The notes below the pieces were generated by a model. The model searched no databases and was not told the origin of the DNA. It saw nothing but the letters and a program-made list of their open reading frames with translations. From NCBI RefSeq assembly GCF_005877905.1, contig NZ_SWDV01000008.1, positions 1 through 64,000 on the forward strand: a stretch of DNA of 64,000 nt. The letters run 5' to 3'. Positions 47,822 to 50,565 of this stretch are shown here, in pieces; positions within the stretch are counted from its first letter, which is position 1, and each line of letters begins with the position of its first letter. The position numbers were made by a program, and so were the translations under genes. This stretch comes from Pseudomonas nicosulfuronedens (GTDB lineage: Bacteria > Pseudomonadota > Gammaproteobacteria > Pseudomonadales > Pseudomonadaceae).

Positions 47822-48922
<1,101 letters not shown>

Positions 48923-48942
48923 GGTAGGAAAGCCCTGTAAAG

Positions 48943-48984
48943 GTCGGTTGACGTTTCGCCCGCGCTGGTGAAACTTCAACCGAC
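48943..48984 (+). other. Strong intercistronic stem-loop between mreB and mreC
   Basis: GTCGGTTGA pairs perfectly with TCAACCGAC; after one C/T mismatch GTTTC pairs with GAAAC, closing a 12-base loop. It ends 11 bases before the mreC ribosome site (AGGAG, 48996-49000) and has no T-run, so it is not a simple terminator. Likely roles are RNA processing, mRNA stability or control of mreC translation. Confidence 0.75.
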
Positions 48985-49006
48985 TTCGCACAGCTAGGAG
49001 CCGGTC

Positions 49007-50077
49007 ATCAAACCGATATTCTCCAAAGGGCCCTCGCTGGGCGCGCGCCTGCTGGTGCTCGCCGTCCTGTCGGTCGCCTTGATGGTGGTCGATGCCCGCT
49101 TCGATTATCTGAAACCGGTACGCAGCCAGATGGGCCTCGTGCTGAGTCCCTTCTATGGCATTGCCGACTTCCCTGTACGTGCCTGGGAAGGCGTGCGCGA
49201 CCAGTTCACCAGCCGCAGCGAGCTGCTGGCCGAGAACGAGCGCCTGAAGGCCGAGCAGCTGCTGATGCAGCGCCGCCTGCAGAAGCTGGCCACCCTGACC
49301 GAACAGAACGTGCGCCTGCGCGAGCTGCTCAACTCCTCCGCCCTGGTCGATGACAAGGTGCTGGTGGGCGAGCTGATCGGTGTCGACCCGAACCCGTTCA
49401 CTCAACGCATCCTGATCGACAAGGGCGAGAAGGACGGCGTGTTCCAGGGCCAGCCGGTGCTCGACGCCAGCGGCCTGATGGGCCAGGTGGTCGAGGTCAT
49501 GCCCTACACCGCGCGCGTGCTGTTGTTGACCGATACCACCCACAGCATTCCGGTGCAGGTGAACCGCAATGGCCTGCGCGCCATCGCCGTGGGCACCGGC
49601 AATCCGGAACGCCTGGAGCTGCGCTACGTCGCCGATACCGCCGATATCAAGGAAGGCGACCTGCTGGTCAGCTCCGGCCTTGGCCAGCGTTTCCCGGCCG
49701 GCTATCCGGTGGCGGTGGTGAAGGAAGTGCTGCACGACACGGGGGGGCCTTTCGCCACCATCCGCGCCGTGCCGACCGCGAAGATGAACCGCAGCCGCTA
49801 CGTGCTGCTGGTGTTCAGCGACAGCCGTACTCCCGAACAGCGCGCCACCGATGCTGCCGAGGCCCAGGCCGAGGCCGACCGCAAGGCTGCCGAGTCCGGC
49901 ACGCCGGCACAGCCGGCACCGGGCGCTCCGGCGGCTCAGCCGCATGAGGGCGCGCAGCCGGCTGCTCCTGCTGCTCCCGCCGCACAGCCCGCCCATCCGG
50001 CCGCTACCAATGGCACGGCCCCTGCCGCGCCTACCGGTGCGCCGGCATCGCACCCGGATGCAAGGACCCGTCACTGA
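49007..50077 (+). CDS. mreC: Rod-shape determining protein MreC, apparent ATC start
   Basis: The bitopic elongasome protein linking MreB filaments to periplasmic PBP2-RodA. The conserved N-terminus KPIFSKGPSLGAR (E. coli KPIFSRGPSL) lies upstream of any ATG, GTG or TTG in frame, and an in-frame TAG at 48995 bars a longer one. The codon where E. coli has Met is ATC at 49007, six bases after AGGAG. Starting there gives 356 residues with one membrane helix (LLVLAVLSVALMVVDA), a coiled coil (SELLAENERLKAEQLLMQRR) and the beta domain. The GTG at 49055 would cut off the N-terminus and half the helix. The C-terminus has an Ala/Pro-rich tail of about 70 residues. Confidence 0.9.
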   Translation: MKPIFSKGPSLGARLLVLAVLSVALMVVDARFDYLKPVRSQMGLVLSPFYGIADFPVRAWEGVRDQFTSRSELLAENERLKAEQLLMQRRLQKLATLTEQNVRLRELLNSSALVDDKVLVGELIGVDPNPFTQRILIDKGEKDGVFQGQPVLDASGLMGQVVEVMPYTARVLLLTDTTHSIPVQVNRNGLRAIAVGTGNPERLELRYVADTADIKEGDLLVSSGLGQRFPAGYPVAVVKEVLHDTGGPFATIRAVPTAKMNRSRYVLLVFSDSRTPEQRATDAAEAQAEADRKAAESGTPAQPAPGAPAAQPHEGAQPAAPAAPAAQPAHPAATNGTAPAAPTGAPASHPDARTRH

Positions 50078-50565
50078 TGGCGGCCCAGGGCTCGAACAAC
50101 GGCTGGGCCATCTGGTTGACCCTGCTGGCGGCGCTGCTGCTGTCGGTGGCGCCGATGCCCAGCTTCATGGAGATCGGCCGTCCGCTGTGGCTGGCGATGT
50201 TCCTCACCTACTGGGTGCTCTACCTGCCACACAAGGTCGGCATGCTGACCGCCTGGGTGCTGGGCGTCGCCGAAGACGTGCTCTACGGCAGCCTGCTGGG
50301 GCAGAACGCCTTGATCCTCAGCCTGATCATCTGTCTGGTGCTGTCGCTGCACCAGCGCCTGCGCATGTTCCCCATCTGGCAGCAATGCCTGGTGTTGCTG
50401 GTGGTCTTCGGTCTCGCCCAGCTGGTCCAGTTGTGGATCAGTGCCCTGACCGGCAACCGCCCGCCGACCCTGGTTTTCCTCCTGCCGGCACTGGTCAGCG
50501 CCTTGCTCTGGCCTTGGGTCTACACACTGCTGCGGGCCCTGCGGCTGCGCCTGAACATCAACTGA
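50077..50565 (+). CDS. mreD: Rod-shape determining protein MreD
   Basis: A 162-residue polytopic membrane protein of the elongasome with about five helices. LLLSVAPMPSFMEIGRPLWLAM and LGVAEDVLYGSLLGQNAL (in pieces) are family typical. Its ATG shares one base with the mreC stop (TGATG), so translation is coupled. Confidence 0.95.
   Translation: MAAQGSNNGWAIWLTLLAALLLSVAPMPSFMEIGRPLWLAMFLTYWVLYLPHKVGMLTAWVLGVAEDVLYGSLLGQNALILSLIICLVLSLHQRLRMFPIWQQCLVLLVVFGLAQLVQLWISALTGNRPPTLVFLLPALVSALLWPWVYTLLRALRLRLNIN

Follow-up and report, generated by a model that had tools for sequence, protein, structure and literature searches.

A probable AUC start codon for mreC in Pseudomonas nicosulfuronedens, at a position held by AUH codons in many related bacteria

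The window analysed here is a stretch of 64,000 nucleotides of the Pseudomonas nicosulfuronedens genome (assembly GCF_005877905.1, contig NZ_SWDV01000008.1, positions 1 to 64,000). On its forward strand it carries an mre operon spanning positions 47885-50565, whose order mreB-mreC-mreD was assigned by Pfam (MreB_Mbl, MreC and MreD) and is also that of the E. coli annotation. The first gene, mreB (47885..48922; PF06723, 492.5 bits), starts with ATG, and the ATG of mreD (50077..50565; PF04093, 125.9 bits) overlaps the mreC stop codon. The starts of these two genes served as controls in a set of related loci, the best 80 of 491, which come from Pseudomonas, Stutzerimonas, Azotobacter and metagenome-assembled genomes (two of them labelled only Gammaproteobacteria). 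The mreB genes had ATG before the motif FKKLRGxF in 79 of these best 80 loci, the motif not being found in L019, and the mreD start near the mreC stop was ATG in 68 of them, TTG in three and GTG in two, and was not found in seven.

Between mreB and mreC lies a gap of 84 nt (48923..49006, forward strand) with a predicted hairpin (fold -36.2 kcal/mol, z -3.3 versus mononucleotide shuffles). When the gaps of the window and of 78 of the 80 relatives were folded, z was below -2 in 44 of the 79, relative to single-base shuffles, and the sequences of the gaps differ. By eye, a terminator-like run of T follows the stem in L043, L057, L069 and L074, and a script searching for T-rich tails after the stem flagged one gap out of 79 (L053). 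No excess of perfect stems was found in the gaps: stems of at least 9 were present in 44/79, and in 58/79 a stem of 9 arose in the best of 10 shuffles, so that by this count the hairpin carries no claim.

The mreC coding sequence (49007..50077, forward strand) comprises 356 codons plus TGA. Its frame, taken from an ATC codon at 49007..49009, matches TIGR00219 with 215.3 bits (cut-off 92.75, residues 5-277), and the product matches PF04085 with 152.1 bits (cut-off 28, residues 124-269). Direct reading places the upstream end of the frame at an in-frame TAG (48995..48997), and a Shine-Dalgarno (SD) sequence AGGAG (48996..49000) precedes the ATC with a 6-nt spacer (49001-49006). From 49007 the codons are ATC AAA CCG ATA TTC TCC AAA GGG CCC TCG CTG GGC GCG CGC CTG CTG GTG, the last one, codon 17 (49055..49057), being the first canonical codon; read directly, the window has no ATG, GTG or TTG in the mreC frame from the TAG at 48995 to this GTG. 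The energy of the SD duplex with the anti-SD is -6.5 at ATC 49007 versus -2.4 at GTG 49055. Residue 1 of the window's MreC aligns with the first residue, Met, of MreC chain 7eft_A, which begins MKPIFSRGPSL, a sequence that the annotated E. coli mreC encodes from ATG. A preliminary description of this DNA had reported the in-frame stop, the lack of canonical codons before GTG 49055 and the AGGAG six bases 5' of the ATC, every coordinate of which is right, and had placed the ATC at the position of E. coli Met1, as the alignment with 7eft_A and the annotated E. coli gene confirm.

If initiated at codon 1, the protein would begin fMet-KPIFSK and contain a better 19-residue window for the membrane helix (SLGARLLVLAVLSVALMVV), and from codon 17 onward it would begin MLAVLSVALMVVDAR, leaving a hydrophobic run of 12 residues (MLAVLSVALMVV) before the first charge. 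ATC 49007 is the only plausible mreC start within the window, and from the comparison with relatives we infer with high confidence that AUC 49007 is the codon at which initiation takes place.

The mreB-mreC junction was compared across relatives, as the preliminary description had proposed, and the outcome agrees with its reading. The homologous codon 1 of mreC was ATH in all of the best 80 of 491 loci (38 ATT, 33 ATC and 9 ATA), and in genomes of the same genus, own genome included, it ended in C, A or T in 25/25, never in G, the first base lying outside the search pattern. Therefore, a miscalled ATG, with an error at 49009, is excluded; over 200 further genomes likewise carry ATH here.

The variability of the region is that of a coding sequence that begins at the ATH codon. 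Among the best 80 of 491 loci, codon 1 has the same first and second bases throughout and varies among C, T and A at the third (entropy 1.39 bits), while codons 2-21 have a protein-type third-base pattern. Codon-like variability begins precisely at codon 1; 5' of it, conservation is mostly that of the SD (GAGG), and the amino acids that codons -1 and -2 would encode show no conservation in the same 80 loci. Codon 1 also differs from the isoleucine codons elsewhere in these mreC genes, where ATC:ATT:ATA are 562:204:11 as against 33:38:9 at codon 1 (chi-square p 6e-12, kinship ignored); ATA accounts for 9/80 at codon 1 versus 11/777 elsewhere. In 60 of the best 80 of 491 loci there is no in-frame ATG, GTG or TTG between the upstream stop and the ATH, and in the other 20 one is present further upstream. 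In relatives with such an upstream codon a longer MreC is formally possible, and in the window the TAG closes it. That the ATC might be an internal isoleucine codon of a longer protein, reached from upstream through readthrough of a stop, a frameshift or some other unusual start, would account for a third base that is never G in the family and would have a candidate start in those 20 loci, but we regard it as highly improbable, considering the TAG at 48995, which four codons upstream of the ATC rules out an upstream-extended MreC in the window, the stops within 12 codons in many relatives, the lack of conserved residues at codons -1 and -2, the un-isoleucine-like spectrum of codon 1, the SD directly 5' of the ATH and the E. 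coli Met1 at the same codon.

Among the best 80 of 491 loci, the mean SD energy was -7.57 kcal/mol at the ATH codon, -3.29 at the first downstream NTG and -2.22 at random positions, and in 79 of the 80 the ATH had a stronger SD than the first NTG downstream of it. In the same loci the first canonical mreC codon was found anywhere from +3 to +23 codons from the ATH. These data bear on the possibility that translation begins at GTG 49055, or at the first NTG, and that the conserved sequence before it is a relic or is not translated, which would be in line with how P. aeruginosa MreC has been annotated in one record and numbered in one paper. In the 1131-base P. aeruginosa record CP123788.1, the homologous ATC stands behind AGGAG at 219 and mreC is annotated from GTG 267, 16 codons past the ATC. 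The P. aeruginosa MreC residues given in the available part of Martins et al. 2021 (PMC8137920), Pro114/Phe115, Arg175 and Glu188/Arg190, are residues 130/131, 191 and 204/206 when the ATC is counted as 1, the offset again being exactly 16. However, the 16 codons upstream of the GTG evolve as protein, with third-base changes, and the GTG would leave just the 12 hydrophobic residues for the membrane helix. With its weak SD, the conservation upstream of it and the wandering position of the first NTG, GTG 49055 was rejected as the real start, and initiation there appears very unlikely.

Thus, the comparison with relatives, the P. aeruginosa record and, as far as the available part of the paper goes, the published numbering strongly support two further proposals of the preliminary description, namely that mreC starts at the ATC and that a start at GTG 49055 loses the cytoplasmic tail and part of the membrane helix. 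At least one record and one paper, judging from the residues quoted in the latter, would then place the beginning of P. aeruginosa MreC 16 residues downstream of its true start. If gene callers generally start mreC late, many records and the constructs derived from them would be affected in this way. Record CP123788.1 (L383) is described as a plasmid and holds nothing but an mreB-mreC piece; therefore, it is probably a chromosome fragment. In the plasmid collection, several records of 3.6-5.4 Mb with mreC look like chromosomes.

At the level of the family, a pattern search found the ATH form of the mreC start motif in 317/398 genomes, belonging to 11 of 19 genera, and the ATG, GTG or TTG form in 0/398. 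Neither form was matched in 81/398 genomes, in which the start peptide probably differs. For the eight genera without a hit to the ATH pattern, a profile search found mreC in 30/30 sampled genomes; 28 were readable, the two others having only the gene end (L419) or an unclear orientation (L407), and codon 1 was ATH in 28/28, 21 of them without an NTG upstream and seven with one. Considering the pattern hits and these readings together, the ATH form is therefore present in at least one genome of each of the 19 sampled genera of the family. The NTG form was seen in none of the family genomes covered, whether by pattern (398), by reading (28) or among the best 80 of 491 loci.

Of 145 genomes of the order, 142 yielded an mreC gene, and the start was read in every one of these. 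Codon 1 was ATH in 111 of them, window included (94 without an NTG upstream and 17 with one), and canonical in 31 (23 ATG, 6 GTG and 2 TTG). The ATH start occurs in 39 of the 46 families of the order, and families f7, f11, f15, f19, f24, f25 and f32 showed canonical starts alone among their few sampled genomes. If the alignment did not place a start-like codon at position 1, the closest one no more than a few codons away was used instead, which shifted 25/142 rows, nine of them among the ATH ones and mostly by one codon. When ten genomes whose alignment begins at residue 10 or later were left out, ATH was found in 108/132 (92 without an NTG upstream and 16 with one) and canonical codons in 24.

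For the rest of the class, 114 of 124 genomes were matched, which minus two belonging to the order gives 112. The 69 genomes read comprised the 30 best-scoring loci less the own genome, hence 29, plus 40 chosen by score and by an alignment start at residues 1-4; 54 of them had ATH (48 without an NTG upstream), 14 a canonical codon and one neither. As this sample was chosen by best match, it leans to close relatives. Six further genomes of the same class, from the search of the phylum, have ATG (L362, L363, L365, L366, L368 and L370) and stand outside these counts. Outside the class, the phylum search gave MreC N-termini too diverged to align, and the 21 loci inspected were not counted. Canonical starts are also seen in an Aeromonas record, in which the gene is unannotated and ATG was read from the sequence, and in two Acinetobacter records, in which mreC is annotated from GTG. 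In Legionella adelaidensis (L384) mreC is annotated from a GTG within the end of mreB, unlike the gap with an AUH start in Pseudomonas. Since canonical starts make up 31/142 in the order and 14/69 in the class sample, with six more ATG besides, the AUH codon is not indispensable, and the fraction of the class that has it is uncertain.

A tree of 210 rows was built leaving codon 1 out; G435, L317 and a row that had no start-like codon were omitted, and E. coli and Aeromonas were added. With 163 AUH and 47 canonical starts on this tree, the fewest state changes are 29. The changes on the tree are undirected, and it is the spread of the AUH start that suggests it to be the ancestral state. The 142 AUH starts without an NTG upstream (94 in the order and 48 in the class) had a mean SD energy of -7.47, compared with -3.93 for 45 canonical ones (Mann-Whitney p 3e-11, kinship ignored); E. 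coli mreC has -3.0. Independent pairs on well-supported branches numbered seven, of which on average 2.6 agree with this association, 0.1 oppose it and 4.3 are equal (median p 0.25). The pattern looks as if a weak codon with a strong SD had been traded for a good codon with a weak SD, but the association is suggestive only, since it is not significant in the independent pairs.

According to these data, mreC is very probably translated from AUC 49007, with the weak codon offset by the strong SD and the output likely held down. An ordinary SD-guided 30S complex would select the AUC, and initiator tRNA-fMet would pair with it with a third-base mismatch, so that MreC would begin fMet-KPIFSKGPSLGAR; the strong AGGAG at good spacing would compensate for the poor codon. 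It is likely, by analogy with other AUH-start genes, that AUC lowers mreC initiation relative to AUG. IF3 would be expected, from what holds for infC, to disfavour AUH initiation complexes; this would keep the MreC output of the common mreBCD message lower than that of MreB and make it sensitive to the IF3:30S balance. The codon may serve MreC dosage, possibly through IF3. The low, IF3-linked output that the preliminary description had put forward would fit the papers on infC and pcnB as well as the pairing of a weak codon with a strong SD, a pairing that loses significance when relatedness is considered.

Conversely, AUC could be the start and its weakness a historical accident tolerated through the strong SD, with no function in dosage or in a response to IF3. 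The 29 or more state changes on the tree indicate that canonical starts can be tolerated, the strong SD might be mere compensation, and the link between codon and SD fails the test that takes relatedness into account. On the other hand, canonical starts tend to have weaker SDs, as if output were restrained either way, and the three ATH codons interchange and ATA is one transition away from ATG, yet there is no NTG form in the family. The lack of NTG (in the best 80 of 491 loci, in 0/398 and in 0/28) despite this exchange among ATH codons suggests that G is selected against. We therefore consider an accident to be unlikely, albeit deserving serious weight, and favour the translation of mreC from a weak AUC codon that restrains its output. 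A broader proposal, that the AUH codon was present early in Gammaproteobacteria mreC and has persisted in many families because it ties the amount of the elongasome scaffold MreC to the IF3:30S balance, with cell-wall elongation following ribosome supply, is possible but tentative, and we would not expect it to hold in full. If the favoured reading holds, mreC would add an AUH-start gene in a core cell-shape system, across many families, and translation initiation might be connected to the growth of the cell wall. A search by title and start of abstract in the open-access literature, a scope that leaves most subscription papers outside, found no report of an AUH start for mreC in Pseudomonas or generally; in E. 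coli and certain other lineages ATG is paired with a weak SD instead, which may be a reason why the AUH start was overlooked.

Among genes that start in this way, infC is regulated by its own product, IF3, and pcnB is said, going by the title of a 2002 paper by Binns and Masters, to be limited by its AUU start. In E. coli, AUU initiation has been described for infC and pcnB, which in the available part of the source are said to be the only two AUU-start genes of this organism (PMC9410913). In Staphylococcus aureus, the extended-SD starts of cvfC1 (AUU), ccpN (AUA) and infC (AUA) were identified by ribosome profiling with retapamulin, and such codons typically keep expression low, with modulation by IF3, according to the portion of that paper available (PMC13009471).

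The genome studied here probably offers a precedent of its own. Its infC (C40, L176) reads GGAGTAATC ATT ATT AAG behind GGAG, and its frame lacks any NTG between the stop 18 codons upstream and an ATG five codons past the first ATT, which makes an AUH start of this gene likely, with three ATH codons as candidates. The pcnB gene was considered as a second example in the same genome and discarded, its frame having an ATG near its start.

Compared with these genes, mreC resembles infC of E. coli and of other bacteria in having an AUH codon behind an SD, and differs from it in that infC is autoregulated by its product; MreC is a cell-wall scaffold, and its control would therefore come through the level of another protein. 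It shares an AUH start with E. coli pcnB, whereas the AUH codon of mreC spans an order and beyond. Like S. aureus cvfC1, ccpN and infC, it combines AUH with an extended SD, and the codon of cvfC1 is conserved among staphylococci; from the available part of that study, these are otherwise different genes in another phylum, with starts shown by profiling, unlike that of mreC, which is predicted from sequence. The E. coli mreC has the homologous protein, operon and N-terminus, but it uses ATG with a weak SD (-3.0). The features of natural AUU, AUC and AUA starts are found in mreC, with AUH at the homologous first codon, a frame closed upstream and an SD at initiating distance, and the non-G third base is conserved in close relatives, canonical codons appearing further out (31/142 and 14/69). 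The best reading of these comparisons is that mreC would join infC and pcnB as another gene with an AUH start, one that is deeply conserved.
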